Under the pieces are notes generated by a model, which made no database searches, had not been told where the DNA came from, and saw only the letters and a program-made list of their open reading frames with translations. Made by a program: the position numbers and the translations under genes. A stretch of 64,000 nucleotides of DNA from Streptomyces sp. Edi2 (GTDB lineage Bacteria > Actinomycetota > Actinomycetes > Streptomycetales > Streptomycetaceae). Below, piece after piece: positions 16,030 through 63,193 of the stretch. The stretch lies in the NCBI RefSeq assembly GCF_040253635.1, contig NZ_JBEJGX010000003.1, positions 3,782,001-3,846,000 of the forward strand, in the 5' to 3' direction. How positions within the stretch are numbered: position 1 is the stretch's first letter; each line of letters starts with the position of its first letter.

Positions 16030-16046
16030 TCTGACGTACCGTCAGA
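16030..16046. promoter_or_regulatory. Regulon palindrome 1 (perfect TCTGACG-TAC-CGTCAGA)
   Basis: Both 7-base arms match exactly around a TAC centre. The site lies 34 bases upstream of the TTG start of the leftward LLM monooxygenase gene, a normal position for a repressor overlapping a promoter. It is the reference copy from which the other sites were recognised. Confidence 0.8.
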
Positions 16047-16104
16047 TTCGATGTGCCGACTGTTCCACCGCACACGGGGAGCGTCAATAGCCGTCGCGCG
16101 CCGG

Positions 16105-16121
16105 ACTGACGCACCGTCAGA
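16105..16121. promoter_or_regulatory. Regulon palindrome 2 (ACTGACG-CAC-CGTCAGA)
   Basis: This near-perfect copy overlaps the stop codon of the upstream SDR gene, 75 bases from site 1 centre to centre. Together the two sites flank the likely promoter of the LLM-amidohydrolase pair. Confidence 0.7.
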
Positions 16122-16902
16122 ACAGACTGACCCCCGCCAGCCAGCCCCCGTCGACGACGAACGGCTGCCCGGTGATGTACGACGAGTCCTCGCACGACAG
16201 GAAGAGCGCCAGCTTGGCGACCTCCTCCGGCCGGCCGATCCGGCCCAGCGGCACCAGCTTCCGGTAGAGCTCATCCACGGCCCGCTTCGACTCGACCGGG
16301 TCCGCGCTCGGGTCCAGTGCCGCGGGGTTGGTCATCGGGGTGTCCACCGCCCCCGGGCACACCGCGTTGACCCGGATCCTCCTGGCCGCCAGCTCCACCG
16401 CGGCGACCCGGGTGAGCCCGAGGACCGCATGCTTGGTCGCGGCATACGCGCCGACGAAGGCCATACCTGTCAGGGCCGTGTACGAGGCGGTGTTGACGAT
16501 CGTCCCGCCGCCCGCCGCCTCGATCTCCGGCGCCACCGTACGGATCCCGAGGAAGCACCCGACCTGGTTGACCTGCACCACCTGCTGGAACTCCTCCAAC
16601 GGCGTCGACACCAGCTCGTTGAAACGAAGAATCCCCGCGTTGTTGACCAGCCCGTCGATCTTCCCGAAGGCGTCCTTGGCGGCGCCGGCCGCCGCCTCCC
16701 AGTCCGCCTCCCGCGTCACATCCATATGGACGAAGCGGGCCCGGTCCTCCCCCAGCTCCTTGGCCAGCGCCTCGCCCTGCGCGTCGAGCACATCCCCGAG
16801 CACCACCTTCGCGCCCTCCGCGGCGAACAGCCGCGCCTCCTGCTCACCCTGCCCGCGCGCCGCACCCGTCACGATGACAACCCGCCCGTCGAGCTTGCCC
16901 AT
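16117..16902 (-). CDS. SDR family oxidoreductase (3-hydroxysteroid/hydroxyacyl type)
   Basis: This 261-residue classical SDR has TGAARGQG at residues 12-19, NNAG near 88, and the catalytic Ser with Tyr-x-x-x-Lys visible as YAATKHAV. The ending [16 protein letters not shown] is typical. It resembles glucose/3-oxoacyl or hydroxysteroid dehydrogenases and probably oxidises a secondary alcohol with NAD. The ATG at 16902 follows GAGGAG with about seven bases spacing; the longer frame to 17043 is rejected because it has no ribosome site and reads through simple repeats. It lies between two LLM genes on the same strand, so a shared oxidative pathway is likely. Confidence 0.88.
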
Positions 16903-16984
16903 GCCTGCACTCCTCTGCTGGTGAGTACGCCTTCGGCTGTTCCGGTCCGTGAGCTGTGCGCCGCGAGTTGTGCGCCGTGCGTCG

Positions 16985-17118
16985 TGAACGGTGAGTGGTG
17001 AGTGGTGAGCCGGGAGTGTGGCGAGCGTTGAGTGGCGAGCCATGAGCGTGGTGAGCGGTGACGAACAGCCGCCCAGCCGCCCAGCCGTTCAGCCGTTCAG
17101 CGCTCAGCCATTCAGCGC
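16985..17118. repeat. Simple tandem repeats between SDR and LLM genes
   Basis: The left part holds repeated GTGAGTG units and the right part repeated CAGCCGCC/CAGCCATT-type units, including a duplicated 15-base element ending CAGCCATTCAG that overlaps the LLM stop codon. No hairpin terminator or gene is seen. Confidence 0.5.
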
Positions 17119-18087
17119 TCAGCCATTCAGCAACGGCGCCACATCCGTCCCGAACGCCGCCATCTGCTCCGTCAGCTCGTCACCACTACGGCTGCGGAAC
17201 CGCACCTGGATCTGGTCCACTCCCATGGTCCGGTACTCCCGCAGCGACTCCGCGATCCGCTCCGGCGCCCCGGACAGGGTCCGCCGGCCGACCTCCCACC
17301 CCGGCTCGCCGATGTACAGCGGCTCGGCGATGGCGCCGATCACGACCGGCGTACCGACACCGGCAGCGGCCCGCAGCCTCCGCAGCTTTCCGATCTGCGC
17401 CGGCAGCTCCGACCGCCGGTCGCCTTGCGGCAGCCAGCCGTCGCCGCGCACCGCGGCCCGGCGTACGGCGGCGGGCGAGGATCCGCCCACCCAGAGCGGC
17501 GGCCGAGGCGTCTGCACGGGCCGCGGCGCCTGCCCCAGCCCCTCGAACGCGAACCGCTCCCCCGCGAACCGGGGGAACTCCTCCGGCCCCAGCGCCGCCT
17601 TCAGCGCGTCAATCGTCTCGTCCAGCACCGCCCCACGCCGCTCGAAGTCCACTCCGAGGACGTCGAACTCCTCCGTCACGTGTCCGGCGCCCACCCCCAG
17701 AATCAGCCGCCCACCGGAGAGCCGGTCGAGCGTCGCGTACTGCTTGGCGGTGACCAGCGGATGCTTCAGCCCGGCCACCGCCACATGACTGAGCAGCCGC
17801 ACCCGCTCGGTGACGGCGGCCAGATGCGCGAGGGTGGCGACCGGGTCGTACCAGACGGTGCTCATCGCCTCGGCCAGCCGCCGCGGGATCGCCAGGTGCT
17901 CACAGCAGGCGATATACGCGAACCCGTACCGGTCGGCGGCCCGCGCGACCGCGACCAGCTCGACGGGCCCCGCCGCGGCCTCCCAGCTCTCCGCGAAGAG
18001 AGTGCTCTGCGACTGCACCGGCAGCTGCATCCCGTACACCAGCCGCCCGTCCTCCGGCCGCCATACCCCACCGCGCACGCCGTCCAC
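17119..18087 (-). CDS. LLM class F420-dependent oxidoreductase
   Basis: This 322-residue luciferase-like protein shows ADRYGFAYIACCEHLAIP, VRLLSHVAVAGLKHPLVTAKQYATLDRLSGGRLILGVGAGHV and PRPPLWVGGSSPAAVRRAA, all typical of the F420-dependent subgroup. It probably oxidises or reduces a cyclic intermediate. The GTG at 18087 is chosen because GGGAGG lies five bases upstream; an in-frame ATG at 18117 would sit inside a regulon palindrome. Two palindromes, at 18102-18118 and 18144-18160, precede it. It is the first gene of the leftward group LLM-SDR-LLM-amidohydrolase. Confidence 0.87.
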   Translation of the reverse strand: MDGVRGGVWRPEDGRLVYGMQLPVQSQSTLFAESWEAAAGPVELVAVARAADRYGFAYIACCEHLAIPRRLAEAMSTVWYDPVATLAHLAAVTERVRLLSHVAVAGLKHPLVTAKQYATLDRLSGGRLILGVGAGHVTEEFDVLGVDFERRGAVLDETIDALKAALGPEEFPRFAGERFAFEGLGQAPRPVQTPRPPLWVGGSSPAAVRRAAVRGDGWLPQGDRRSELPAQIGKLRRLRAAAGVGTPVVIGAIAEPLYIGEPGWEVGRRTLSGAPERIAESLREYRTMGVDQIQVRFRSRSGDELTEQMAAFGTDVAPLLNG

Positions 18088-18101
18088 AGGCCCTCCCACG
18101 A

Positions 18102-18118
18102 TCTGACGAGGCGTCATA
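18102..18118. promoter_or_regulatory. Regulon palindrome 3 (TCTGACG-AGG-CGTCATA)
   Basis: One mismatch to the 17-bp consensus. It ends 15 bases upstream of the GTG start of the LLM gene, close to its ribosome site, so binding would block the promoter or early transcript. Confidence 0.7.
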
Positions 18119-18143
18119 TACCCCGGAGCGACACATCGTGGCG

Positions 18144-18160
18144 CCTGACGCCCCATCAGA
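18144..18160. promoter_or_regulatory. Regulon palindrome 4 (CCTGACG-CCC-CATCAGA)
   Basis: Two mismatches to consensus, 42 bases from site 3 (about four helical turns), on the same face of the DNA. It lies between the LLM gene and the end of the DUF4231-like gene. Confidence 0.55.
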
Positions 18161-18188
18161 CAAGGGGCGGGCGTCGGCGCGCAATCGG

Positions 18189-19061
18189 CTACACGGCTCC
18201 CCGGGAGGCCCGCCACATCGTGTGTTCGCGGCTGATCGCCTCCTCGGCGTCAGCCACCTCCTGCATCCAGTCCGACTCCTCATGGGTCGCGGACAGCCGC
18301 TGGTGCACGATGCTCAGTTCGGTCGCCGCAAAGGTGTAGGCACGACCGAGCGACTCGTACTGCCGCACCGCGAACCAGGCGGCGCCGGCGCCCAGCACGG
18401 CCGCGAGCACACCGGGCAGATCGAAGTCGATGACCTTCAGCAGGCGCAGCACAGCGGCGAGCACGCCCAGCCCCTCCACCACGATGAGGCCGATCCGCCA
18501 GCGGCGGGCCAGAACGATGTTCACGGCCGCCTTGGTTCCGTACCACTGCTGCTGATCCGCGATGCGCCCGGCGAGATACGCCTGCTTGCGGCAGGCGAAC
18601 GGGCTCCGGCGCAACTCACCCATGGCCTGGGTGGCGGCCATGGAGCCCACCGGGACGATGCTGTCGGCCGGCGCCTCCCTGAGCAATAGCTCCAGCCGCT
18701 CGTGGAATCTGCGTTCCGCGGCGTCCGCGGGCAGCGTGGCCGGGAACGGCTCGCCCGCCACCGCGTATCGCCAGGACAGCGTCTTCGCCGACTCCGCAAG
18801 GGCACGCCCGTCGTACCAGGCACGCTCCGGCCGCTCCGCGAGCATCCACACCTCCAAGTAGACGGTCACCAAGAAGGCCAGGAGCACCACCGTGACCGCG
18901 GCGTCGTTGCTCGACACCGCACAGACGGCAGCCACAATCGCCAGCACCAGCCGCCATTTCGTGCCCCGCATATGGCGGCGCTGCCCCGAAACCGAAGCGG
19001 CATCCGCCGACCGGAACACCGCCGGAAAATCCTCGTCGCCGAGTGTTCGCCCCTCGCTCAC
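18189..19061 (-). CDS. Membrane protein of DUF4231/SLATT type
   Basis: This protein of about 290 residues has two transmembrane pairs, one in WRLVLAIVAAVCAV/AVTVVLLAFLVTVYLEVWML and one in IGLIVVEGLGVLAAVL/LPGVLAAVLGAGAAWFAV, joined by a polar helical region and followed by a helical tail (YTFAATELSIVHQRL). This layout matches DUF4231/SLATT proteins, proposed in comparative genomics to be membrane pore effectors in nucleotide- or TIR-linked conflict systems. The GTG at 19061 has GAGGGGG ten bases upstream; an ATG at 19082 is an alternative. It is divergent to the TIR-propeller gene, supporting a functional pair. The assignment is by fold pattern only. Confidence 0.6.
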   Translation of the reverse strand: MSEGRTLGDEDFPAVFRSADAASVSGQRRHMRGTKWRLVLAIVAAVCAVSSNDAAVTVVLLAFLVTVYLEVWMLAERPERAWYDGRALAESAKTLSWRYAVAGEPFPATLPADAAERRFHERLELLLREAPADSIVPVGSMAATQAMGELRRSPFACRKQAYLAGRIADQQQWYGTKAAVNIVLARRWRIGLIVVEGLGVLAAVLRLLKVIDFDLPGVLAAVLGAGAAWFAVRQYESLGRAYTFAATELSIVHQRLSATHEESDWMQEVADAEEAISREHTMWRASRGAV

Positions 19062-19298
19062 CGCAGCCCCGCCCCCTCGCATCCCGCAACATGAGTCCGA
19101 AATACGACAGAAGTGTAGAGCCGATCGCCGACGGCCATCCCGGCATCCGGGGAACGGGACCGGGCCGAGGACGAGACGCTGCGGTGATACCAACTTCGCG
19201 GCCACAAGGCACCGTTGCCACCCTCACCGGCGATGTGGATGATGCGGCAACGGGGACGTGCGGCGGCCCCGTGCCGACCTGACGACGGGGGAACCGGA

Positions 19299-22112
19299 AT
19301 GGCTGGCCAGAACGCCTCGCAGCGCACCCACCGATACGACGCCTTCCTTTCCTACAGCCATGCGGCCGACAGCGCCAAAGCTGATCATCTGCGGCGGGGC
19401 CTGCAGAATTTCGCGCGCAGCAGCTGGCGGCAATTACGGGCGCTGCGTATCTTCCTCGACAATGCCTCGCTGGCGGCGAACCCGGCTTTGTGGCCCGAAA
19501 TCGAGCGTCATCTCGCGGATTCCGGCGCCTTTATCCTGCTCGCCTGCCCGAGGTCCGCGGACTCGGACTGGGTGCAGAAGGAGATCAACTGGTGGCGCGC
19601 CGGCCCCGGGGCGCGGAGGATGCTCATCGTCGTCACCGGCGGTGAGCTGGAGTGGGACCACGGGGCGGGGGACTTCGACTGGGCGCGCACCACCTGCCTG
19701 CCGCGCACCATGGCGGGAATGTTCAGCGACGAGCCTCGGTGGGTCGATCTGCGGTGGATGTCGGAACAGGATCCCGGCTCGCTGCGGGACTCTCGCTTCC
19801 AGCAGTGTGTGGCCGACCTGGCGGCCCCGCTGCACGAGCGCCCCAAAGAGGATCTCATCGGTGCGGACGTCACCCGGCAGCGCAGGACGAAACGGCTCGT
19901 GCGCGGTGCGCTCGCCGTCATCACCACTCTCGCCTTGGCGGCCGGCCTGGGCTGGGTGGACGCCGTCCAGCAGCGGGACGAGGCCCAGCGGCAGGCTCTG
20001 CTGGCGACCTCCCGGCAGCTGGCCGCGACCGCTCTGAACCTGAAAGACGGAAATCTGCGGCTGGCGTCGCTGCTGGCGATCGAGGCGTACCGCATGCAGC
20101 AGTCACCCGAGGCCCTCGCCACGCTGAACCGGCTCTCCACGGACAGCCCTCATCTGGTGAGCATGACGTCGAGCACGAAGGACATCAGCGCGCTCGCTTT
20201 CAGCACGGACGACCAGGCGGTCGCCGTCGGTGACGAGGGCGGTGCGGTGACGGTGCGGGGTGCCGACGGCCGCACCCTGCGTGCCCGGACCTCGCTGCCG
20301 GGCCGCATCACGGCAGTGGGCTTCAGCAAGGACGGGAAGCGGCTGGCCGTCGGGGACGACAAGGGCAACGTGGGGGCCTATGACCTGACGCGCAGGACAC
20401 TGCGCCGGTTCGTTCCCCGGCCCGAGAGCGTTTCCTCGCTGGCATTCAGCACGGCGGGACAGCTGGCCGTCGTGGATGCGGACGGCACGGTGACGCTGTA
20501 CGAGGAGAGCGGGAAGCAGGTCCGTTCGCAGCGCACCGGGCACTCCGGCGACGTGATCGCCTTCCAGAACGCCGGGTCCCGCCTTCTGGTGCGCGACGGA
20601 GTGGGTGGCGGCGCCCTGCACACCGTGCCCGAGCTGCGCACGATCCTGAACAGCAAGGAGTTCGTACTGCCCGCGAGCCAGGCCGTGGTGGCCGTCTCCA
20701 ACAGCGGCCGCTGCTTCGGCTACCTCAAGTTCGGGCAGTTCATCAGCACCGGACTACCGGAGATCAAGGGCCACCAGTCCCTCGCCGACACCTGCACGGA
20801 CTTCCCCGCGCTCCCCAACGAGGAAGCCAGATTGCTGGCCCTGACCGACAACGGCCGGATGGCCGTGGGCACCACGTCCGGCATCACGGTGGTCGACGCG
20901 GAGACCAAAGGGCGCGCCAGTCAGCTCCGCAAGCTCACCGGTGTCGGCGGGCCCTCGCTGCTGAAGTTCTCGGACACGGGCAGCAGGCTCGCTTCCGTAC
21001 ACGGCCGGACGGTCGCGCTGTGGAACTTCGACCAGTTCTCCCGGACGGCTCATGCGCACGGCCTGCCCCTGTCGGACGACCAGACCATGGTCTACAGCCC
21101 GCCTCTGGCCGCCGGCCCGGACGGCCAGGTCGCCTGGAGCAACCTCATGCACGGCGACCCCTTCGGCACCGAGACCAAGCTGCACGTCTGGAGCCCGAAA
21201 GGCCGCGGCACGCTCGCGGGCGGGGAGGCTCTCATGTACGACGCGCTCGCCTTCAGCCCCGACGGCCGGACACTGCATGCCGGCCTGGACGGTGCAGTGC
21301 AGTCATGGCAGATCCAGGACACACGCCTGGTGAAACGGCACACGGTGGCCTTTTCCGGAGAGCGGTACGGCTACTCGCGGGACCCTGTCGTGATCGCCCC
21401 GCGCGCGGACGGTTCCCTGGTCGTCACCACGGACGACGGGGCCGTCCATGTCGCCGGACCGTCGGCGCAACGCACCCGGATCATGGTGCCGCGTGGCACC
21501 GGCGACCCTCAGAAGGGGCTGCTCTCCTCGTTGAGCGACGACGGCCGGACCGCCGCCGTGGAGAACACCAGGGGCGCCGTCGACATCTACGACGTCGACT
21601 CCGGAAGGAAACTGCAGTCGGTGCGCCTGAACGGCGAGCAGGTGAACGCGCTCGCGCTGGCCGCCGGGGGACATGCACTATTCCTCGTGGGCAGCAAGGG
21701 GACGTTGGCCCGCTGGGACCTGGACGAGCGGCAATTCCGCTGGCAGAGCGCCGAGCCGAACGGGGCCCGGGTGACAGCGAGCGCGGACGGCCGCACGGTC
21801 ATCACCCTTTCCGACAGCGGCGCCTTGAACCGGTGGGACGCGGACACCGGAGACCGGCTGGGCGGCCCCGACATCCCCATCCCACTCCACACACTGTCCG
21901 GAATCGGCGGCATCGGGGAGCACACCGGCTTCGTGCTGGACGACGCCGGCACGCTGTGGACGGCCACCGAGGGCGGCGATGTCCTCTCCTGGGACTTCTC
22001 GGTGAACTCCTGGATCAAGGGCCTCTGCCGGATCGCCGACCGCGATCTCACGGCGGCCGAATGGCACCGCTATGTGGGAAACACCCCGCCGCCCCGTCCC
22101 ACCTGCGGCTGA
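19299..22112 (+). CDS. TIR domain, transmembrane helix and beta-propeller protein
   Basis: This 937-residue protein begins with a TIR domain (residues 12-150: YDAFLSYSH, then SDWVQKEINWW with Glu95 at the position of the catalytic glutamate in NAD-cleaving TIRs). A single transmembrane helix (about 201-219) follows, then a helical AALNLKDGNLRLASLLAIEAYR segment and WD40-like propeller blades to the end (repeated SALAFSTDDQAVAVGD-type units). The TIR domain should face the cytosol and the orientation of the propeller depends on topology. GGGGGAACCGGA precedes the ATG. It shares a 237-base upstream region with the divergent DUF4231-like gene. A role in phage-triggered NAD depletion or signalling is an inference. 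Confidence 0.85.
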   Translation: MAGQNASQRTHRYDAFLSYSHAADSAKADHLRRGLQNFARSSWRQLRALRIFLDNASLAANPALWPEIERHLADSGAFILLACPRSADSDWVQKEINWWRAGPGARRMLIVVTGGELEWDHGAGDFDWARTTCLPRTMAGMFSDEPRWVDLRWMSEQDPGSLRDSRFQQCVADLAAPLHERPKEDLIGADVTRQRRTKRLVRGALAVITTLALAAGLGWVDAVQQRDEAQRQALLATSRQLAATALNLKDGNLRLASLLAIEAYRMQQSPEALATLNRLSTDSPHLVSMTSSTKDISALAFSTDDQAVAVGDEGGAVTVRGADGRTLRARTSLPGRITAVGFSKDGKRLAVGDDKGNVGAYDLTRRTLRRFVPRPESVSSLAFSTAGQLAVVDADGTVTLYEESGKQVRSQRTGHSGDVIAFQNAGSRLLVRDGVGGGALHTVPELRTILNSKEFVLPASQAVVAVSNSGRCFGYLKFGQFISTGLPEIKGHQSLADTCTDFPALPNEEARLLALTDNGRMAVGTTSGITVVDAETKGRASQLRKLTGVGGPSLLKFSDTGSRLASVHGRTVALWNFDQFSRTAHAHGLPLSDDQTMVYSPPLAAGPDGQVAWSNLMHGDPFGTETKLHVWSPKGRGTLAGGEALMYDALAFSPDGRTLHAGLDGAVQSWQIQDTRLVKRHTVAFSGERYGYSRDPVVIAPRADGSLVVTTDDGAVHVAGPSAQRTRIMVPRGTGDPQKGLLSSLSDDGRTAAVENTRGAVDIYDVDSGRKLQSVRLNGEQVNALALAAGGHALFLVGSKGTLARWDLDERQFRWQSAEPNGARVTASADGRTVITLSDSGALNRWDADTGDRLGGPDIPIPLHTLSGIGGIGEHTGFVLDDAGTLWTATEGGDVLSWDFSVNSWIKGLCRIADRDLTAAEWHRYVGNTPPPRPTCG

Positions 22113-22242: not shown

Positions 22243-23475
22243 TCAGACTCCCCCCGCCGACGGCCCCCACAGCCCCTCCCCCGTCAACCCCAGCAGGGAA
22301 ATCGCGTTCCCCCGAACGATCTGTTCCACTACGTCCGGCGCGAGGTGTCCCATCTGTGATTCGCCGACCTCCCTCGACTTCGGCCAGGTCGAATCGGAGT
22401 GCGGGTAGTCCGTCTCGTAGAGGACGTTGCCGACGCCGATCGCGTCCAGGTTCTTCAGACCGAAGGCGTCGTCGAAGAAACAGCCGTAGACGTGTTCGGT
22501 GAAGAGTTCGGACGGCGGGCGGAGGACCTTGTCGGCGACGCCGCCCCAGCCGCGGTTCTCCTCCCAGACCACGTCGGCGCGTTCGAGGATGTACGGGATC
22601 CAGCCGATCTGGCCCTCGGCGTACATGATCTTCAGGCTGGGGAAGCGGTCGAATTTGCCGCTCATCAGCCAGTCCACCATCGAGAAGCAGCAGTTGGCGA
22701 AGGTGATCGTGGAACCGACGGCGGCGGGGGCGTCGGCCGAGGTCGAGGGCATCTTCGACGAGGAGCCGATGTGCATCGCGACGACCGTGCCGGTCTCGTC
22801 GCAGGCGCGCAGAAAGGGGTCCCAGTAGTCGGTGTGGATGCTGGGCAGCCCCAGGTGCGGCGGGATCTCGCTGAAGCAGACCGCCCGTACCCCGCGGGCC
22901 GCGTTGCGCCGTACCTCCGCGGCCGCCAGCTCCGCGTCCCACAGGGGGATGAGGGTCAGCGGGATCAGCCGCCCCTGCGCCTGCGGGCCGCACCACTCCT
23001 CGACCATCCAGTCGTTGTACGCGCGCACGCCCAGCAGCCCCAGTTCGCGGTCCTTGGCCTCGGTGAAGGTCTGGCCGCAGAAGCGGGGGAAGGTGGGGAA
23101 GCAGAGTGCGGACTGGACGTGGTTGACGTCCATGTCGGCCAGCCGTTCGGGCACGCTGAACGAGCCCGGACGCATCTGTTCGTAGGTGATGCCTTCGAGC
23201 TTGATGTCGTCGCGGGCGCAGCCGACGGCGGTGTCGAGGCGGGTCAGCGGCCGGCGCAGATCTTCGTAGACCCACCAGTCGGCTATCGGGCCTTCGTCCC
23301 CCGCGGCGCCCATCGTCGGGGCGAACTTGCCGCCCACGAAGGTCATTTCCTTGACGGGCGCCCGGACGATGCGCGGGCCGATGCCGTGGTACTTCGACGG
23401 AAGCCGGTCCCGCCAGACGTGTGGGGGCTCCACCGTGTGGTCGTCCACCGAGATGATCTTGGGGAAGGTCTCCAT
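22243..23475 (-). CDS. ACMSD-like amidohydrolase family protein
   Basis: This 410-residue TIM-barrel protein belongs to the amidohydrolase_2 family that includes aminocarboxymuconate-semialdehyde decarboxylase. It opens with SVDDHTVEPPHVW, a DxH-type metal motif, and has MHIGSSSKM and YETDYPHSDSTWP carrying further ligands. Family members perform decarboxylation or hydrolytic C-C cleavage and occur often in actinobacterial steroid-like catabolic clusters. The ATG at 23475 has no clear ribosome site and lies 20 bases from a regulon palindrome (23496-23512), so the transcript may be leaderless. The gene is convergent with the TIR gene and points away from the SARP gene. Confidence 0.87.
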   Translation of the reverse strand: METFPKIISVDDHTVEPPHVWRDRLPSKYHGIGPRIVRAPVKEMTFVGGKFAPTMGAAGDEGPIADWWVYEDLRRPLTRLDTAVGCARDDIKLEGITYEQMRPGSFSVPERLADMDVNHVQSALCFPTFPRFCGQTFTEAKDRELGLLGVRAYNDWMVEEWCGPQAQGRLIPLTLIPLWDAELAAAEVRRNAARGVRAVCFSEIPPHLGLPSIHTDYWDPFLRACDETGTVVAMHIGSSSKMPSTSADAPAAVGSTITFANCCFSMVDWLMSGKFDRFPSLKIMYAEGQIGWIPYILERADVVWEENRGWGGVADKVLRPPSELFTEHVYGCFFDDAFGLKNLDAIGVGNVLYETDYPHSDSTWPKSREVGESQMGHLAPDVVEQIVRGNAISLLGLTGEGLWGPSAGGV

Positions 23476-23495
23476 GGCGGATACGGTAGCGCCGA

Positions 23496-23512
23496 TCTGA
23501 CGGTGCGTCAGC
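23496..23512. promoter_or_regulatory. Regulon palindrome 5 (TCTGACG-GTG-CGTCAGC)
   Basis: One mismatch at the last base. The site ends 20 bases before the ATG of the amidohydrolase gene, where a -35 to -10 region of a leaderless promoter would be. Confidence 0.72.
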
Positions 23513-23831
23513 ACTACGTCCGGGAATGAACCGGGTGGCGAGGGGCGCTACTCGGGAGAGTCAGCAGCAGCGGAGTACGGCCCGAGCATCGGAAGGTCAG
23601 GACGGGGCGCGTTCAGGGCGCACAAGGGCAACTACCGGCCAGAGGGCGCGCGGAAGCGGACCCTCCGCGCCTCCTTGTGCATTGACGCATACACCTCCTG
23701 ATCACCCGAGGAGGCTTTGTGCATGCTCCGGACCCCTACTGACGTAAGGGGCTCGGACAAGGCAGACTGACCGTTGCGCACGGTGAACCGATGCGAACGG
23801 TACGAACGGATGGCACAAGGCAGGGGGACAC
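23513..23831. other. Upstream region of the AfsR-like regulator
   Basis: About 320 bases without a convincing gene. It contains two copies of TTGTGCAT (23675-23682 and 23717-23724, 42 bases apart) and between them a CCTCCT/AGGAGG inverted repeat. Such direct repeats could be binding sites for a SARP or other regulator of the following gene. Two small reading frames on the minus strand here look like shadows. Confidence 0.4.
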
Positions 23832-27913: not shown

Positions 27914-27930
27914 GCTGACGATGCATCAGT
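27914..27930. promoter_or_regulatory. Regulon palindrome 6 (GCTGACG-ATG-CATCAGT)
   Basis: The inner six-base arms match with one change (CATCAG for CGTCAG). The site ends 79 bases upstream of the GTG start of the AMP-forming ligase gene, the first catabolic gene after the SARP island. Confidence 0.6.
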
Positions 27931-32456: not shown

Positions 32457-32473
32457 GCTGACTGCCCGTCAGA
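32457..32473. promoter_or_regulatory. Regulon palindrome 7 (GCTGACT-GCC-CGTCAGA)
   Basis: Two mismatches to the 17-bp consensus. The site sits in the 105-base divergent region, 35 bases from the ligase start and 53 bases from the thiolase start, so one bound regulator could control both operons. Confidence 0.68.
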
Positions 32474-39934: not shown

Positions 39935-40104
39935 GCCTGTTGATAACACTCTTCACCGGTTCGGACCAAGCGGGGCGGCGCGAGGCGCGGCCACGGGCGG
40001 GCCCGCCACCAGCACACTCACGGCGGCTACGCACCCCGAACTCCCCCATCCCCATTTGCAGGCAGCCAAATCGCGCTCCGATCACCCCTCGGTAAGCTGA
40101 CGGC

Positions 40105-40752
40105 ATGACAGGACAAGTTCGAACCGTCGACGGCAGAGTTGCCGGCCGCCGCGGACAGGCGACGCGGCAAAAGCTTCTGGACTGCCTCAGTGAAATGCTC
40201 AGTTCGTCCCCCTATCGGGACGTCAAGGTCATCGATGTAGCCCGAAAAGCGGGGACTTCACCCGCAACGTTCTACCAGTACTTCCCGGACGTCGAGGGCG
40301 CCGTCCTCGAAATCGCCGAGGAGATGGCCAAAGAAGGCGCCACTCTGACCGATCTTGTCGCCGGACGCTCCTGGGTGGGCAAGTCCGCATGGCAGACGGC
40401 AGAGGATCTGGTCGAGGGCTTCCTCTCCTTCTGGCGGAAGCACGACGCCATTTTGCGCGTGATCGACCTGGGCGCGGCCGAGGGCGACAAGCGGTTCTAC
40501 AAGATCCGCATGAAGATCCTCAATGCCGTCACCAACTCCCTTACGGATTCGATCAAGGAACTGCAGAGCAAAAGCAAGGTCGACAAGGACGTGAGTGCGC
40601 CCGCGATGGCCGGCTCACTCGTCGCGATGCTGGCGGCGGTTGCCGGGCACCAGAAGGGTTTCCAGAGCTGGGGCGTGAAGCAGGCCGAGCTCAAACCGAA
40701 TCTGGCGCTGCTGGTACACCTCGGCGTCACCGGCAAGAAGCCGACCAAATAG
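40105..40752 (+). CDS. TetR family transcriptional regulator
   Basis: This 215-residue regulator has the N-terminal TetR helix-turn-helix (about residues 18-66: RRGQATRQKLLDCLSEML, KVIDVARKAGTSPATFYQYFPDVEGAVLEIAEEM) and a C-terminal helical ligand-binding domain ending KPNLALLVHLGVTGKK. The HTH is strongly conserved-looking and resembles widely distributed Streptomyces regulators (AtrA-type is one possibility from memory, not verified). CTGACG, half of the regulon palindrome, lies just before its ATG, but no second arm follows. It is the only TetR gene in a window with 14 such palindromes, so it is a candidate controller. Confidence 0.88.
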   Translation: MTGQVRTVDGRVAGRRGQATRQKLLDCLSEMLSSSPYRDVKVIDVARKAGTSPATFYQYFPDVEGAVLEIAEEMAKEGATLTDLVAGRSWVGKSAWQTAEDLVEGFLSFWRKHDAILRVIDLGAAEGDKRFYKIRMKILNAVTNSLTDSIKELQSKSKVDKDVSAPAMAGSLVAMLAAVAGHQKGFQSWGVKQAELKPNLALLVHLGVTGKKPTK

Positions 40753-43139: not shown

Positions 43140-43209
43140 CGCGGGCTCCTCCCGGCCGTGCGGCACCCCCGTCGGTCCGACGGGCTGGCTCACTCACTCC
43201 CGCTATCGA

Positions 43210-43226
43210 TCTGACGGGCCGTCATA
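43210..43226. promoter_or_regulatory. Regulon palindrome 8 (TCTGACG-GGC-CGTCATA)
   Basis: One mismatch to consensus. It lies 70 bases upstream of the chosen start of the acyl-CoA dehydrogenase gene and is the likely operator of the dehydrogenase-Ddn pair. Confidence 0.7.
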
Positions 43227-46194: not shown

Positions 46195-46211
46195 TCTGAT
46201 GTACCGTCAGA
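46195..46211. promoter_or_regulatory. Regulon palindrome 9 (TCTGATG-TAC-CGTCAGA)
   Basis: One mismatch to consensus with the same TAC centre as site 1. It ends only three bases before the ATG of the thiolase gene, where the -10 region of a leaderless promoter would be expected. Confidence 0.75.
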
Positions 46212-51540: not shown

Positions 51541-52131
51541 TCACACGGGCCGGAACACAGGAATGGCAACCCTCCCGCCTGCCCCACCACCAACACCATC
51601 ACCAACGCCCTCACCCTGGCCCTCGCCCGCGCCCGCGCCCGCGCCCTCGCCCGCGCCCTGGCCCGCGGCCGCGTCCTGCCCCTCCCCCTCTCCCTCGTGA
51701 CGGAAGTGCACGGCGAGCGGCATCCCGATCCGCAGTTCCGGCTCCGGGCAGTCGGTGATCTCGGTCATCATCCGGGGGCCTTCGACGAGATCGACCACGG
51801 CCGCCACGTACGGGACCCGCTCAACGAAGGGCGGGAGATCGTTACGGTGCACCACGGACCAGGTATAGAGAGTGGCGCGTCCGCTGGCCGGCACCCAGCC
51901 GACATCCTCACTCCAGCAGTGCGGGCAGAACTCACGCGGGTAGTGATGCACCGCACCGCACCCCTCTGCCCGGCAGCGACGCAGCAGCAGTCGCCCCTCG
52001 GCCGCCGCGTCCCAGTACGGCCTGGTGAAGGCATCCACCTCCGGCAGATCGAAACGCGCCGCACTCCTCGCCCCACGCGACACCGCCCCCTGCGCCCCTC
52101 CCGCCCCAGCCCCAGCAGTCCCAGCCATCAC
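51541..52131 (-). CDS. Zn-ribbon OB-fold protein (DUF35) with low-complexity tail
   Basis: This 196-residue protein has the DUF35 zinc ribbon (CRAEGCGAVHHYPREFCPHC, spacing CX5C rather than the usual CX2C) and OB fold (GRATLYTWSVVHRNDLPPF...YVAAVVDLVEGPRMMTEI). Near the C-terminus about 40 residues are a Gly/Glu/Ala/Gln repeat (GEGEGQDAAAGQGAGEGAG type, encoded 51560-51700), interrupting the OB fold before its last strand. Such proteins partner thiolase-like enzymes. GGAGG lies upstream of the GTG-ATG start pair. A palindrome at 52165-52181 precedes the gene, matching the one at the thiolase-like gene 46215. Confidence 0.85.
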   Translation of the reverse strand: MMAGTAGAGAGGAQGAVSRGARSAARFDLPEVDAFTRPYWDAAAEGRLLLRRCRAEGCGAVHHYPREFCPHCWSEDVGWVPASGRATLYTWSVVHRNDLPPFVERVPYVAAVVDLVEGPRMMTEITDCPEPELRIGMPLAVHFRHEGEGEGQDAAAGQGAGEGAGAGAGEGQGEGVGDGVGGGAGGRVAIPVFRPV

Positions 52132-52164: not shown

Positions 52165-52181
52165 CCTGACGATGCGTCAGT
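52165..52181. promoter_or_regulatory. Regulon palindrome 10 (CCTGACG-ATG-CGTCAGT)
   Basis: The inner CTGACG/CGTCAG arms are perfect; both outermost bases differ from consensus. It ends 33 bases upstream of the DUF35 gene start. Confidence 0.72.
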
Positions 52182-52945: not shown

Positions 52946-53035
52946 ATGGTTCGCCATCACCGTGCGCACAACATGAGCCCCGCACCCGCACCCGCACCCG
53001 CACCCGCAAGCTTTACCGTGCACGCCCATTCCTGA
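52946..53035 (+). CDS. Possible 29-residue leader peptide
   Basis: GAGGAGG, five bases from an ATG, opens a 29-codon frame, MVRHHRAHNMS(PA)nSFTVHAHS, containing four Pro-Ala units from a CCCGCA tandem repeat. Its TGA stop lies inside regulon palindrome 11. The strong ribosome site and position before the ADP-forming ligase gene suggest a leader or attenuator peptide, but no conservation information is available. Confidence 0.35.
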   Translation: MVRHHRAHNMSPAPAPAPAPASFTVHAHS

Positions 53036-53047
53036 CGTGGCGTCAGT
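53031..53047. promoter_or_regulatory. Regulon palindrome 11 (CCTGACG-TGG-CGTCAGT)
   Basis: Perfect inner arms CTGACG/CGTCAG. It lies 66 bases upstream of the chosen ligase start and forms a tandem with site 12, starts 24 bases apart. Confidence 0.7.
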
Positions 53048-53054: not shown

Positions 53055-53071
53055 TCTGACTGTGCGTCAGT
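53055..53071. promoter_or_regulatory. Regulon palindrome 12 (TCTGACT-GTG-CGTCAGT)
   Basis: Two mismatches to consensus. Tandem arrangement with site 11 suggests cooperative binding in front of the ADP-forming ligase gene. Confidence 0.65.
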
Positions 53072-53112: not shown

Positions 53113-55368
53113 ATGCTTGGATCGACTCACGGCACCCTCACCACTCACTCCCGGCCGGCCCGCGTCATGGCCTGTGGGGAGCAACCACGACACACCGTCC
53201 ACGGCATCAGTGAACCGCACCCCGGCGACGGCGGACAGGGCGCCGGGGTGGTCGACCGCGATGTCAGCGGGCGTCCGCTGCACGCCCCGGCGCTCGACCT
53301 GGACCGGTTCTTCCGGCCCGAGTCCGTGGCCGTGATCGGCGCCTCGGACAGCGAGGGCCGCCCCAACGCGGGGATCACCCGCCAGCTGATCACCTGGGCG
53401 GAGCGCGTCGGCGCCCGGCTCCACCTCGTCAATCCGGGACGCGACCAGGTCTTCGGGCGGCCTTGCCACTCAGCCGTCGCCGAGCTGCCGGAGACCGTCG
53501 ACCTCGCCGTACTCCTCGTCGGCGACCCCCTTCCGGTCATCGAGCAACTCGGCGAGGCCAAGGTGAAGTTCGCCGTGGCCTTCGCCTCCGGATTCGCCGA
53601 GACCGGCGAGCGCGGGGCGGCCGCCCAGGCCCGGCTGGCCGAGGTCGTCGAGCGGTCCGGTCTGCGGCTGCTCGGGCCGAACACCAACCTCAACGCCTTC
53701 GAGCGGTTCCGTGAGGACCTGGACGGCCCGGCCATCGCCCTGATCACGCAGTCAGGCCACCAGGGCCGCCCCGTCTTCAGCCTTCAGGAACTGGGCATCC
53801 GTCTCTCGCACTGGGCCCCCACCGGCAACGAGGCCGATCTGGAGACCGCGGACTTCCTCTCCTACTTCGCGACCCGCCCCGAGGTGGGCGCCATCGCCGC
53901 GTATGTGGAAGGCCTCAAGGACGGCCGCAGCTTCCTGCTGGCCGCCGACCGCGCCGCCCGCCATCACGTCCCCGTCGTCGCCGTCAAGGTCGGACGCACC
54001 GAGACCGGCGCCCGGACGGCCCTCTCGCACACCGGCAAGCTCACCGGCGCCGACAGCGTCGTGGACGCGGCGATGCGGCAGTTCGGCGTCATCCGGGTGG
54101 ACGGGCTCGACGAGCTGCAGGACACCGCGGCCCTGCTGGCCCGTGCGAAGAAGCCCACCGCGGAGGGCATCGCCGTCTATTCGATCTCCGGGGGCACCGG
54201 CGCGCACTTCTCCGACCTGGCGACGGCGGCGGGGTTGCGGCTGCCCGCCCTCGGTGACGCCAAGCAGGCCGAACTGCACCAGTGGATACCGGACTACCTG
54301 AGCGTCGCCAATCCGATCGACAACGGCGGGCACCCGGTCGGCGACTGGCGCGGCCGCAAGATCATCGACGCGATCCTGACCGACCCGTCCATCGGCGTAC
54401 TGATCTGCCCGATCACCGGCCCCTTCCCGCCCATGAGCGACAAGCTCGCCCAGGATCTGGTGGATGCGGCGGAGCAGACGGACAAGCTGGTGTGTGTGGT
54501 GTGGGGCTCGCCGGTGGGCACCGAGGACGCCTATCGCCGCACCCTCCTCGGCTCCTCGCGGGTGGCGACCTTCCGCACCTTCGCCAACTGCATCACCGCC
54601 GTCCGCGCCTATCTGGACCACCACCGCTTCGCGGCCGGCTACCGCTCCCCCTTCGACGACGCCCCCCGCATACCGTCCCCGTCCGCGCGCAAGGCCCAGG
54701 CCCTGATGCGTCCGGGCGAACCGCTCAGCGAGCACGCGGCCAAGCAGCTGCTGCGGGCCTACGGCATCCGGGTCCCGCGCGAGCAGCTGGTGACCAGCGC
54801 GGCGGCGGCCGTACGGTCGGCGAGCCTGGTCGGCTATCCCGTCGTCATGAAGGCTTCCGGGCCGCAACTGGCGCACAAGACCGAACTCGGCCTGGTCAAG
54901 GTCGGACTGACCTCGGCCAGCCAGGTCAGGGACGTGTACCGCGAGCTCACCGACATCGCCCGTTACGAGGACGTAGCGCTGGACGGTGTACTGGTCTGCC
55001 AGATGATCGAGCGAGGCGTCGAGACGGTCGTCGGCATCACCCACGACAGCCTCTTCGGGCCGACGGTCACGGTCGGCCTCGGCGGGGTGCTCGTGGAGGT
55101 CCTGCAGGACGTTGCGGTGGGTATCCCGCCCTTCGGTGAGGACCAGGCGCGCGCGATGCTCGGCGAGCTCCGCGGCCGCGCCCTCCTGGACGGCGTACGC
55201 GGCGCACCGCCCGCGGATATCGATGCGCTGGTCGAGGTCGTGCTCAGGGTGCAGCGGATGGCGCTCGAACTCGACGGTCAGCTGGCGGAGTTGGACATCA
55301 ATCCGCTGGTCGTCCTGCCACGCGGGGAGGGCGCCGTGGCCCTCGACGCGCTGGCCATCTGCCCTTGA
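53113..55368 (+). CDS. ADP-forming acyl-CoA synthetase family protein (ATP-grasp)
   Basis: This protein of about 750 residues contains the succinyl-CoA-synthetase alpha-type CoA-binding domain (RFFRPESVAVIGASDSEGRPN from about residue 65), the ligase-CoA domain and, in the C-terminal part, an ATP-grasp domain (SEHAAKQLLRAYGIRVPREQLV, YPVVMKASGPQLAHKTELGLVKVGL, DGVLVCQMIERGVE). A swivelling His is expected after the CoA domain. It makes acyl-CoA from a carboxylate with ATP to ADP plus phosphate. The ATG at 53113 has AGGAG twelve bases upstream; other starts upstream lie within the operators. The first 60 residues are a poorly conserved leader, so the start is uncertain. Confidence 0.87.
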   Translation: MLGSTHGTLTTHSRPARVMACGEQPRHTVHGISEPHPGDGGQGAGVVDRDVSGRPLHAPALDLDRFFRPESVAVIGASDSEGRPNAGITRQLITWAERVGARLHLVNPGRDQVFGRPCHSAVAELPETVDLAVLLVGDPLPVIEQLGEAKVKFAVAFASGFAETGERGAAAQARLAEVVERSGLRLLGPNTNLNAFERFREDLDGPAIALITQSGHQGRPVFSLQELGIRLSHWAPTGNEADLETADFLSYFATRPEVGAIAAYVEGLKDGRSFLLAADRAARHHVPVVAVKVGRTETGARTALSHTGKLTGADSVVDAAMRQFGVIRVDGLDELQDTAALLARAKKPTAEGIAVYSISGGTGAHFSDLATAAGLRLPALGDAKQAELHQWIPDYLSVANPIDNGGHPVGDWRGRKIIDAILTDPSIGVLICPITGPFPPMSDKLAQDLVDAAEQTDKLVCVVWGSPVGTEDAYRRTLLGSSRVATFRTFANCITAVRAYLDHHRFAAGYRSPFDDAPRIPSPSARKAQALMRPGEPLSEHAAKQLLRAYGIRVPREQLVTSAAAAVRSASLVGYPVVMKASGPQLAHKTELGLVKVGLTSASQVRDVYRELTDIARYEDVALDGVLVCQMIERGVETVVGITHDSLFGPTVTVGLGGVLVEVLQDVAVGIPPFGEDQARAMLGELRGRALLDGVRGAPPADIDALVEVVLRVQRMALELDGQLAELDINPLVVLPRGEGAVALDALAICP

Positions 55369-57850: not shown

Positions 57851-58154
57851 GTACCGGAACTCTCCCCCGTGTTCGGCTACGGACGCGGCCGAGGTGGACG
57901 CTACCCGTGCGAGCGACACGCAATCAGGATCCTGCTCCTCAATCTCCCGCGAATCCCCCGAGATCGCCCCCGAGCGCCCGGCAAACCACACGTGTGGGTG
58001 GCCGGCGCCCCCGTGACCGGTGTCCCGTGCGGCCGGCGCCCCGCGACCGACCCCGGACCGACGCCCCCGCAGCCCCGACACCCCGCGCCCGGCGTCCGAC
58101 GCCCCGCGCCCCGCACACCTTCCCATCTGACGCCCCATCAGATTCAATGGAGAC
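57851..58154. other. Divergent region between sigma factor and flavin reductase genes
   Basis: About 300 bases without a gene. GCCCCGCGCC/GACGCCCC-type simple repeats fill 58010-58120 and the regulon palindrome lies at its right end. An additional GC-rich leader exists for the sigma gene at the left end. Reading frames here are shadows. Confidence 0.45.
58126..58142. promoter_or_regulatory. Regulon palindrome 13 (TCTGACG-CCC-CATCAGA)
   Basis: One mismatch (CATCAGA). It ends 12 bases before the first ATG of the flavin reductase gene, overlapping its likely promoter. Confidence 0.72.
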
Positions 58155-58787
58155 ATGATGGGACACGCTGCAATGGCGGCCACGGCCGTGCGGTACCTGC
58201 GTTCCGTCGGCGCGCCCACCACGGCCGCCGCACCCGCCACCGCACCCGCCGGGCCACGCCCGCGCCCCGCCCTGCGGGCCGTACGCGACGACGAGCGTGC
58301 TCCGTTGGACCCGGCCGCATTCCGCTTCGTCCTGGGCCACTTCGCCAGCGGCGTCACGGTCGTCACCTCTCCCGGGGAGCCGGAACCGGCCGGTTTCGCC
58401 TGCCAGTCCTTCGCCTCGCTCTCCCTCGACCCGCCGCTGGTGGTGTTCATGGTGGCGCGTACGTCGACCACCTGGCCGCGGATCGCCCGTGCCGGGGTGT
58501 TCTGCGTCAACATCCTCGGCGCCGGACAGGGCGAGCTCTGCCGCGGGTTCGCGGTCAGCGGCGGCGACAAGTTCGCCGGGGTCCGCTACGGCGCCGCCCC
58601 CGCGACCGGCTCGCCCCGGCTGGCGGACGTTCCCGCCTGGATCGACTGCACGATCCAGGCCGTGCACACCGGCGGCGACCATCTGATCGTGGTCGGCCGG
58701 GTCGACGCCCTCGGCACGGATCCGGCCGCCGCCGAGGACGGCCCGCTCCTCTTCCACCGGGGCACCTTCGGGCAGCTCCGCGGGTGA
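58155..58787 (+). CDS. Flavin reductase family protein (split barrel)
   Basis: This 210-residue flavoprotein has the flavin reductase-like barrel: FRFVLGHFASGVTVVTSPGEPEPAGFACQSFASLSLDPPLVVFMVARTSTTWPRI, GVFCVNILGAGQGELCRGFAVSGGDKFAGVRY and VGRVDALG...PLLFHRGTFGQL. It supplies reduced FMN or FAD to a two-component monooxygenase, as HsaB does in steroid ring cleavage. An Ala/Pro/Thr-rich N-terminal extension (about residues 15-45) precedes the fold. Two ATG codons (58155, 58158) follow GGAGA. It is a plausible partner of the LLM monooxygenases and is under the regulon palindrome. Confidence 0.88.
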   Translation: MMGHAAMAATAVRYLRSVGAPTTAAAPATAPAGPRPRPALRAVRDDERAPLDPAAFRFVLGHFASGVTVVTSPGEPEPAGFACQSFASLSLDPPLVVFMVARTSTTWPRIARAGVFCVNILGAGQGELCRGFAVSGGDKFAGVRYGAAPATGSPRLADVPAWIDCTIQAVHTGGDHLIVVGRVDALGTDPAAAEDGPLLFHRGTFGQLRG

Positions 58788-58977: not shown

Positions 58978-59703
58978 ATGACGACAATCACCACGCGTAC
59001 GGTCGCCTACCCGGCCGACGCCCTCACGATGATCGGGCACCTCGCGCTCCCCACCGGTGCCGACCGCCGGCCCGCAGTCCTGATCGGGCCCGAGGGGACG
59101 GGGCTCAGCGACGTCGAGCGCCGCCGGGCCGATGCCCTGGCTGAGCTGGGATACGTGGCACTGGCCTTTGACCTCCACGGCGGGCGCTACTTCGGCGACC
59201 CCGAGGAGATGCTGGCCCATTGCATGCCGCTGCTCGCCGACCCCGGCCGGATGCGGGGCATCGGCCACGCGGCGCTCGACGTGCTGCGCGGCGAACCGCG
59301 GACCGACCCCGGCCGGATCGCCGCCATCGGCTATGGAACCGGGGGTGCCATAGCGCTGGAACTCGGGCGCGACGGCGTCGACCTGCGCGCGATCGGGACG
59401 GTCAACGCACTGACCACGGGCCGGCCTGGCGAGGCGGCACGCATACGCTGCCCGGTGTGGGCCGGGGTCGGGTCGGAGGACCCGATCATGCCGCCCGCAC
59501 AGCGGGACGCGTTCACCGCCGAGATGCAGGCCGCCGGCGTCGACTGGCGCCTCGCGGTCTACGGCGGCGCCTTGCACGCCTTCCACCATCCACCGGTCGA
59601 GCATGCCGTGCGCCCCGGCGTCGGCTACCACCCACGGCACGCGCAGCGAGCCTGGCGCGACGTCGTCGACCTGCTCGCCGAGTGCCTGCCCGTGACGGAG
59701 TGA
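58978..59703 (+). CDS. Dienelactone hydrolase-like protein lacking the nucleophile
   Basis: This 241-residue alpha/beta-hydrolase resembles dienelactone hydrolases: PAVLIGPEGTGLSDVERRRADALAELGYVALAFDLHGGRYFGDPEEM, then IAAIGYGTGGAIALELG and VGSEDPIMPPAQRDAF, and a C-terminal His in GGALHAFHHP. The nucleophile-elbow position normally GxCxG (or GxSxG) reads GYGTGG, so the catalytic cysteine or serine is replaced by glycine. The aspartate and histidine remain. It may be a binding or non-hydrolytic protein. The ATG at 58978 is preferred over the longer frame because the fold starts there. Confidence 0.85.
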   Translation: MTTITTRTVAYPADALTMIGHLALPTGADRRPAVLIGPEGTGLSDVERRRADALAELGYVALAFDLHGGRYFGDPEEMLAHCMPLLADPGRMRGIGHAALDVLRGEPRTDPGRIAAIGYGTGGAIALELGRDGVDLRAIGTVNALTTGRPGEAARIRCPVWAGVGSEDPIMPPAQRDAFTAEMQAAGVDWRLAVYGGALHAFHHPPVEHAVRPGVGYHPRHAQRAWRDVVDLLAECLPVTE

Positions 59704-62027: not shown

Positions 62028-62080
62028 AAAGCCCTCCCACGCCCGCCCCCACCCACGTTCACTCATCCACCACGGGAGGG

Positions 62081-62151
62081 GACGGGCCGGAGGGGCCGGT
62101 GTGTGGGACGTAAAGCGAAGCAGTCCCACACACCGGCCCCGCAGGCCCGTC
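62081..62151. terminator. Long 29-bp inverted repeat (26 of 29 paired)
   Basis: Two 29-base arms (62081-62109 and 62123-62151) pair with three central mismatches around a 13-base loop, GTAAAGCGAAGCA. The outer 18 bp next to the loop are perfect. It lies between the SDR gene and the acyl-CoA dehydrogenase gene, on the same strand, and probably separates their transcripts. Confidence 0.7.
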
Positions 62152-62246
62152 ACCGCACCCACAGCCCCGCGCAGCGGACCCGGCCCGCCGCCAGGCGCAA
62201 CAAAGAGCAACCCCCACGGCGGGAAAGCCGAAAACGCGCGAACCCC

Positions 62247-63155
62247 CTACGCGTTGGGCCGCGCCTCCGCCCCCGCCGCCCTCGCCATCTCCGAAAGCTG
62301 CGCCAGCATCGGCATGGGGTCGGCCCCGACCGACCCCGGCAGCACCTCCGCCACCCGCTCCGGCGTCCACCCGCCCCCGTCGGCGTACACGGAGCGAAGC
62401 TCCCTCGGCTGGGCCCACACGGCGATCTTGGGCCCGGCAACCGTGTACACCTGCCCGGTGACCTCCCTGGCCCGGTCACTCAGCAGATAGACGACCAGCG
62501 CCGCCACATCCTCCGGCTCGCCGATCTCCGTGAGCTTCATCGGTACGTTCGCCGACATCCGCGTCCGCGCCACGGGCGCCACGGCGTTGGCCGTCACTCC
62601 GTACTTGTGCAGCCCCAGCGCGGCGCTCCGCACCAGCGAGATGATCCCGCCCTTCGCGGACGCGTAGTTGGCCTGGGACACCGAGCCCTGGTGGTTCCCG
62701 CTGGTGAAGCCCACCAGGGTGCCCGTACCTTGCCGGCGCATGACGGCCGACGCCGCCCGGAAGACCGTGAACGTCCCCTTGAGGTGGGTGGCGACCACCG
62801 GGTCCCACTCCTCCTCGGACATGTTGAAGAGCATCCGTTCCCGCAGGATCCCGGCCACGCACACCACACCGTCGATCCGGCCGTACTGCGCCAGCGCGGT
62901 GTCCACGATCCGCTGGCCGCCGGCCATGGTGGACACATCGTCGGCCACCGCGACGGCCAGGCCCCCGGCCGCCTCGATCTCCTTCACCACCGATTCGGCG
63001 ACCTCGCTGCTGGGTCCGGCGCCGTCGACGGAGACCCCGTAGTCGTTGACGATCACCTTGGCGCCCTGATCCGCACAGGCGAGAGCCACCGCCCGCCCGA
63101 TACCGCGGCCCGCCCCCGTTACGGCGATCACTTTGCCGGCCAAGAAGTTCCCCAT
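62247..63155 (-). CDS. SDR family protein (MFE-2/HSD17B4-like 3-hydroxyacyl-CoA dehydrogenase)
   Basis: This 302-residue SDR has TGAGRGIG at residues 13-20, VNDYGVSVDGAGPS (typical of multifunctional-enzyme-2 hydroxyacyl-CoA dehydrogenases), catalytic Ser in GFTSGNHQGSVSQ and Tyr-x-x-x-Lys as NYASAKGG. It probably oxidises a 3-hydroxyacyl-CoA to the 3-oxoacyl-CoA in side-chain beta-oxidation, with the hydratases and thiolases of this window. The ATG at 63155 follows GGGAAGGG. A palindrome at 63177-63193 precedes it and is shared with the divergent cyclase gene. Confidence 0.88.
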   Translation of the reverse strand: MGNFLAGKVIAVTGAGRGIGRAVALACADQGAKVIVNDYGVSVDGAGPSSEVAESVVKEIEAAGGLAVAVADDVSTMAGGQRIVDTALAQYGRIDGVVCVAGILRERMLFNMSEEEWDPVVATHLKGTFTVFRAASAVMRRQGTGTLVGFTSGNHQGSVSQANYASAKGGIISLVRSAALGLHKYGVTANAVAPVARTRMSANVPMKLTEIGEPEDVAALVVYLLSDRAREVTGQVYTVAGPKIAVWAQPRELRSVYADGGGWTPERVAEVLPGSVGADPMPMLAQLSEMARAAGAEARPNA

Positions 63156-63176
63156 GCCGTGACCCTTCCCGCAGTT

Positions 63177-63193
63177 TCTGACGGACCGTTAGA
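63177..63193. promoter_or_regulatory. Regulon palindrome 14 (TCTGACG-GAC-CGTTAGA)
   Basis: One mismatch. It lies 21 bases from the SDR start and 69 bases from the divergent cyclase-family gene, so it can control both. Confidence 0.72.

Follow-up and report, generated by a model that had tools for sequence, protein, structure and literature searches.

A palindromic motif and a candidate TetR-family repressor for a CoA-ester catabolic regulon in Streptomyces sp. Edi2

Palindromic sites in the window and across the genome

The window analyzed here is a 64,000-nucleotide (64-kb) stretch of Streptomyces sp. Edi2 (contig NZ_JBEJGX010000003.1, positions 3,782,001 to 3,846,000) in which the palindrome TCTGACG-N3-CGTCAGA recurs near the starts of genes for coenzyme A (CoA)-ester catabolism, and which also encodes a TetR-family protein at 40105-40752. 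The sites, which are listed without strand, and the genes that they adjoin are as follows.

193..209: site, 40 bp before SDR 241-1026; absent from the earlier list
16030..16046: site with perfect arms, before LLM 14872-15966 (-), Amidohydro_3 12989-14830 (-) and ALDH 11359-12819 (-)
16105..16121: second site of the 16030 promoter region (LLM 14872-15966), overlapping the stop of SDR 16117-16902
18102..18118: site before LLM 17119-18087 (-) and SDR 16117-16902 (-)
18144..18160: second site of the 18102 promoter, a motif match
23496..23512: site at the start of amidohydrolase 22243-23514 (-); kept in 2/2 relatives' loci
27914..27930: site before acyl-CoA synthetase 28010-29719 (+)
32457..32473: site between acyl-CoA synthetase 30784-32421 (-) and lipid-transfer-protein-like thiolase 32527-33678 (+)
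43210..43226: site before acyl-CoA dehydrogenase 41493-43166 (-) and F420H2 quinone reductase 41026-41493 (-)
46195..46211: site before thiolase 46263-47399 (+)
52165..52181: site before DUF35/ChsH2-like gene 51541-52131 (-)
53031..53047: site before ATP-grasp acyl-CoA ligase 53248-55368 (+)
53055..53071: second site of the 53031 promoter, a motif match
58126..58142: site before flavin reductase 58173-58787 (+) and dienelactone hydrolase 58978-59703 (+)
63177..63193: site between SDR 62247-63155 (-) and cyclase 63263-64000 (+); kept in 2/2 relatives' loci

When up to three mismatches were allowed, the palindrome matched the window 17 times, against a mean of 3.77 (maximum 9) in 100 dinucleotide shuffles. 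All 14 positions listed in the original prediction were recovered with 0 to 3 mismatches, and the site at 16030, described there as perfect in its arms, does match at 14 of 14 arm positions. The extra match at 193 (2 mismatches) is a probable 15th site, and the matches at 22108 and 47969 (3 mismatches each) were taken as background. A symmetric matrix was built from the 15 sites; one base further out, 20 of 30 half-sites have A (T on the opposite arm), so the motif spans about 19 bp, A-TCTGACG-N3-CGTCAGA-T. Matrix scores of at least 18.5 occur at 15 window positions, compared with an average of 0.07 in 30 first-order simulations; since the matrix derives from those same 15 sites, the independent tests described below carry more weight than this score.

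Fourteen of the 15 sites lie mostly outside called genes in a window whose coding fraction is 0.83, and the site centers are 23 to 222 bp from the start codon of a unit that they precede. A manual count gives about 14 transcription units served from 12 intergenic regions. The description of the copies as always lying in gaps is nearly right; the exception is 23496, which overlaps the first bases of the chosen amidohydrolase start. The site at 16105, which overlaps the stop of the SDR gene, belongs to the LLM promoter region.

The regulon extends past the window, because at two or fewer mismatches the 9.81-Mb genome holds 74 copies of the motif and only 14 of a reversed control. Seven one-mismatch sites beyond the window lie at 1126, 1195, 4718, 4778, 6051, 6503, and 7240 kb. 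Gene context was read in the window and in fetched remote loci, the latter a minority of the 74 places, and there 1 of 28 sites scoring at least 18.5 is inside a gene. Within the remote loci alone, the intragenic fraction is 1/14 at a score of at least 18.5, 3/19 at 17, and 4/21 at 14. A genome-wide scan for promoter enrichment, the check that had been proposed for the regulon, thus came out in its favor at the inspected loci. Among 20 proteins near remote sites that were scanned for families, several are CoA-ester or flavin enzymes: two acyl-CoA dehydrogenases, a MaoC-like/DUF35 protein, a DUF35-thiolase fusion, a thiolase facing a P450 gene, an enoyl-CoA-hydratase/formyltransferase protein, an NMO-type enzyme, an LLM oxidoreductase, and a styrene-monooxygenase/flavin-reductase protein. 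The rest comprise two ABC transporters, a phosphoadenosine phosphosulfate (PAPS) reductase whose site is intragenic, an aminotransferase, a TetR, a MarR, an AlkZ-like protein, and three proteins without a family.

Two other features of the window were recorded. At 18189-22112, a SLATT-domain protein adjoins a TIR-WD40 protein, forming a defense-like island flanked by two site-bearing units. At 3901-6447, near LLM genes, a Radical SAM protein with a CofH-type C terminus is probably FbiC of F420 biosynthesis.

A candidate regulator and the conservation of its putative operators

The original prediction proposed a single, probably TetR-like regulator. This is supported as the best reading of the sequence, and we now point to a candidate gene, listed here with the element at its start.

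40105..40752, plus strand: TetR-family gene, candidate regulator (TetR_N and TetR_C_38)
40096..40112, no strand: weak operator-like element spanning the presumed -10 element and the start codon of the TetR gene (matrix score about 5-7.5)

TetR 40105 is the sole TetR among 50 window proteins scanned. Its product exceeds the cut-offs for the TetR_N helix-turn-helix (PF00440, 26.9 bits; cut-off 24) and for TetR_C_38 (246 bits; cut-off 23.9), and its structure model (pLDDT 91.9) has the all-helical TetR fold, with 178 PDB matches at an E value of 0.001 or less, EthR being the best. In a family sample of 121 genomes from 17 genera, an orthologue is present in 121/121 at 65-94% identity (in three pieces in G074). 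Twenty chosen TetR proteins, ranging down to 41% identity to the 40105 product, all have the recognition-helix stretch GTSPATFYQYF unchanged. Around the TetR start, in the element CTGACG-NCA-TGACAG, the CTGACG half is invariant in 28/28 genomes printed and the first spacer base varies. The window's version, TAAGCTGACGGCATGACAGG, resembles a leaderless promoter with one perfect half-site, suggesting that the gene may be transcribed leaderless. Self-control in the window's genome is only suggested, because the matrix score at 40096 is low.

The palindrome itself is conserved well beyond this genome. Every one of the 121 family genomes has a match with at most one mismatch, and many have 15-59, against 0-2 for the control. 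For footprinting we used 99 loci around the TetR orthologue, mostly from Streptomyces and Kitasatospora among those named, with Embleya, Yinghuangia, Actinacidiphila, Catenulispora, Actinomadura, and single others; the family represented by the 121 genomes is presumably Streptomycetaceae. Genes were counted at 45% identity or more over half coverage and away from locus ends. Operon heads keep their sites: thiolase 32527 in 28/28, ligase 30784 in 27/27, thiolase 46263 in 27/27, dehydrogenase 41493 in 22/22, ligase 53248 in 19/21, flavin reductase 58173 in 9/15, and DUF35 51541 in 7/12. No site precedes the operon-internal genes (DUF35 33685, 0/28; F420qr, 0/28; ECH 34311, 0/27; ECH 55613, 0/15), and the neutral neighbors TetR (0/100), STK (0/45), and PNPOx (0/35) also lack one, with BTAD at 1/21. 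These counts are not all independent, because divergent heads share one gap and site. The retention is not plain DNA similarity, since each of the seven head promoters has 6-16 distinct site sequences. In 58 of the 99 loci no site scores 17 or more. Orthologous promoters in related species had been named as the place where the original prediction could fail, and there the heads keep their sites and the neighbors do not. In a wider set of 169 sites at a score of 18.5 (from the window, remote loci, relatives, families f14 and f18, and G131, with repeated contexts and sites near locus ends dropped), none lies between convergent genes and one is intragenic.

Outside the family, the sites accompany the TetR gene. 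At an orthologue cut-off of E 1e-30, 21 of 224 outside-family genomes have TetR 40105. Family f13 (five genomes) was left out of the co-occurrence test because 14 of its 33 examined sites are intragenic and 7 lie between convergent genes; a first version had included it and was redone. At least four sites are then found in 12/16 TetR-positive and 2/203 TetR-negative genomes (p 9e-15, although such values overstate independence because the genomes are related, a point that counts against our reading). Three genomes with weak TetR relatives at E 1e-23 to 1e-27 (G271, G288, and G334, with 2, 0, and 0 sites) were scored TetR-negative in both versions.

Linkage points the same way. In families f14 and f18 and genera g2 and g5, the TetR 40105 orthologue remains in site-bearing loci where STK and BTAD do not adjoin it, and five genomes (G133, G155, G174, G187, and G223) have a site scoring 16-22 at 39-74 bp ahead of the called TetR start, the call in G174 being long and possibly wrong. 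Thirteen of 122 scanned TetR-bearing loci hold the steroid gene ipdA, and 12 of them have a site scoring 17.9-24.2 in the gap before echA20 (G004, G018, G133, G223, G155, G131, G187, G233, G007, G035, Yinghuangia soli, and Embleya scabrispora). Divergent from echA20 across this gap, all 11 loci laid out gene by gene have an SDR gene and then the TetR gene.

On the sequence evidence, the palindrome is very probably the operator of one TetR repressor, encoded at 40105-40752, that would govern CoA-ester catabolism, likely of a polycyclic isoprenoid or steroid-like compound. Several observations weigh against this reading. The TetR gene is present in all 121 family genomes, including those with one site, and therefore its presence predicts no sites within the family; its DNA-binding part is 92-100% identical even in the one-site genomes, and G012 holds ipdA and the TetR gene yet has one site. 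In G131, G141, G150, and G174, which are outside the 20 chosen proteins, the recognition stretch is altered at one to three places. The TetR promoter of the window's genome carries only a weak site, and no TCTGACG site was found at the fetched ipd locus of that genome. G013 lacks an echA20 site despite having ipdA beside the TetR gene. G260 (15 sites, assembly 68% complete) and G262 (5 sites, in 850 contigs), the two site-rich negatives of the co-occurrence test, are without a clear TetR orthologue. Finally, the f13 genomes (G201, G132, G171, G154, and G186) and G027 of genus g14 carry 51-177 palindrome copies per genome. In G027 (55 sites), the genome in which g14 positions were examined, 6 of 16 examined sites are intragenic and 3 lie between convergent genes, and many of the listed copies are at 262-1513 kb of contig C3. 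Among those examined, many f13 and G027 copies lie within genes or near or at stop codons. Neither f13 nor g14 was counted as support.

Some of these points could be accommodated if the single regulator acting at the sites were another TetR, a MarR, or a different protein, with TetR 40105 a mere conserved neighbor. Besides the weak site at the TetR promoter and the failure of TetR presence to track site number within the family, a second TetR gene at 3850 kb with two sites next to it, and a MarR gene roughly 300 bp away from a site, speak for this explanation. The 3850-kb TetR, the one other regulator of the genome weighed here, is however matched at E 1e-30 in only 44/121 genomes and is unmatched in the site-rich G009, G033, and G040, and it was rejected as the regulator on these grounds. 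The persistence of the 40105 orthologue in site-bearing loci of f14, f18, g2, and g5 without STK or BTAD, with a site directly upstream in five genomes, also argues against a mere neighbor, and we consider this explanation unlikely.

The palindromes might instead be RNA hairpins or terminators, as the many f13 and G027 copies inside genes or near stop codons would allow; the sequence could fold into a 7-bp stem with a 3-base loop, and 3 of the 11 window sites scoring at least 20 are closer to a stop than to a start. In 20 relatives' loci, however, 27 of 28 sites scoring at least 20 are closest to a start, and 0/169 sites in the wider set are between convergent genes. The T count in the 10 bases past the palindrome averages 1.7-3.7, with no consistent run, and sites between divergent heads are retained while spacer and arms vary. 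A hairpin or terminator role is thus highly improbable.

Likely pathway and the regulators of the ipd operon

What the putative operators control looks, from the genes that they mark, like a steroid-like breakdown pathway. The thiolase at 32527 has as its nearest PDB entry 6ok1, "Lipid-transfer protein" (3e-98), presumably Ltp2, and the amidohydrolase at 22243-23514 is nearest to DitZ and PtmU3, which act on diterpenoid-type thioesters. Beside the TetR gene at locus L084 (G133) are an enoyl-CoA hydratase (PRK07938, 414 bits; cut-off 260) and an SDR (PRK07856, 366 bits; cut-off 255), which we take to be EchA20 (Rv3550) and Rv3549c, respectively. The steroid-gene evidence consists of the C/D-ring set (echA20 and ipdABC) together with the SDR, thiolase, DUF35, and KstR2; ipdA, ipdB, and ipdC were named from order and length, and ipdC also from a sub-cut-off FabK-type match. 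The echA20 and ipd genes follow the order given in Table 1 of PMC5380842. Across the family, the thiolase is found in 46/121 genomes and ipdA in 54/121, with all 46 falling within the 54. Within genus g1, to which the window belongs, 18/28 genomes have both genes and 10-26 sites, and 10/28 have neither and 1-7 sites.

The regulon may instead be real and handle a different substrate activated by CoA, for example aromatic or diterpenoid acids. The ATP-grasp ligase and enoyl-CoA hydratase, an AMP-ligase that has a feruloyl-CoA synthetase as its best PDB match, and the resemblance of the amidohydrolase to DitZ and PtmU3 are all compatible with such substrates. Moreover, the excerpted text of PMC4810484 reports that 55/57 Streptomyces genomes are without the steroid pathway (2/57 with it), compared with our finding of ipdA in 18/28 genomes of g1. 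Against this stands the company that the regulon keeps: echA20, ipdABC, an SDR of the same locus type, the lipid-transfer-protein-like thiolase with DUF35, and KstR2. A different substrate is a possibility to be taken seriously, if not the one that we favor.

Under the steroid-like assignment, the system could work as follows. A TetR 40105 dimer would sit on A-TCTGACG-N3-CGTCAGA-T at CoA-ester catabolic promoters and keep the operons off until a CoA thioester or acid of the pathway enters its C-terminal pocket and releases it. The compound degraded would be a polycyclic isoprenoid or steroid-like. The regulon appears, in some relatives, to extend to echA20-ipdABC of the steroid C/D-ring pathway and to the operon of tetR itself; genomes of the window's genus keep the ipd genes at another locus, mostly beside a KstR2 orthologue.

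That division was examined in 15 fetched ipd loci (20-kb pieces). In eight (G110, G033, G104, G076, G092, G009, G079, and G003), a KstR2 orthologue, called at 70% or more identity to the G110 protein, and the palindrome AACAAA[CT]G[TC]TTGGT lie within the same 20 kb; the G110 protein itself matches KstR2 4w97 at 8e-58. G000 and G050 have this palindrome, with KstR2 not in the fetched piece, and G058 and G012 have a 40-43% KstR2 relative and no such palindrome. In G007, G035, and G013, neither KstR2 nor AACAAA[CT]G[TC]TTGGT was found at the ipd locus; the neighbor is the TetR 40105 orthologue, with the TCTGACG site taking the palindrome's place in G007 and G035. For genus g1, KstR2 is present in 6/7 fetched ipd loci and its associated palindrome in 7/7. 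Loci L207-L214 and L218-L221, from the window's genus and others, have ipdABC-echA20 unlinked to TetR 40105, mostly with KstR2 and a conserved AACAAACGTTTGGT-like palindrome. Because some ipd loci thus have KstR2 and its palindrome and others TetR 40105 and the TCTGACG site, the operon appears to be under different TetR repressors by genus, and a regulator swap between genera is likely.

More tentatively, this TetR, present in all sampled Streptomycetaceae-type genomes and in other actinobacterial families, might be a second master repressor of steroid-type (hydrindane) catabolism that swaps with KstR2 and controls a cryptic polycyclic-isoprenoid pathway (18/28 g1 genomes), with a further core role where the regulon is gone. 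Collectively, the analysis names a probable regulator and operator for a large catabolic regulon in a group studied chiefly for antibiotics, predicts that steroid-like or terpenoid acids are open to attack by many such species, and presents one operon that apparently passes between two dissimilar TetR repressors.

Comparison with known TetR systems

In our literature search, no title or abstract opening among the papers listed described this TetR/palindrome pair, and a motif-string search was unproductive, most subscription journals being outside coverage. KstR2 is the nearest system in function. Its operators are palindromic, as the present sites are. Like TetR 40105 as we read it, KstR2 is a TetR regulator of CoA-ester catabolism, and in several relatives the two share the neighbors echA20, ipdA, ipdB, ipdC, and a Rv3549c-type SDR; according to the excerpted text of PMC5380842, its regulon covers steroid C/D-ring catabolism in mycobacteria and rhodococci. 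It is nevertheless a different TetR with a different operator: the 40105 product has no significant BLASTP similarity to the G110 KstR2 (E 0.98), and KstR2 orthologues sit at the separate ipd locus with AACAAACGTTTGGT or a variant. KstR2 was accordingly rejected as the reader of the TCTGACG motif. The original remark that the motif does not match the mycobacterial KstR or KstR2 operators is thereby supported for KstR2; for KstR, what can be said is that none of the 23 PDB matches of the 40105 product is named KstR or KstR2.

EthR of Mycobacterium tuberculosis is the closest solved relative (E 3.5e-6), and the modeled fold resembles it (TM about 0.78, 17-20% identity), although the relation is only distant. 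MftR, the mycofactocin regulator, is also a TetR protein and binds acyl-CoA, but its published 27-bp operator, as given in the excerpt of PMC8728441 and compared by eye, is unlike this motif, and it was rejected as the reader. SCO3201 of Streptomyces coelicolor is likewise a TetR tied to lipid genes; its structure (4cgr) is a weak fold match to the TetR 40105 model (TM 0.36), and its 15-bp site TGGCAGATTCTGCCA, in the excerpted text of PMC7324645, differs by eye from the palindrome, so that it too was rejected.

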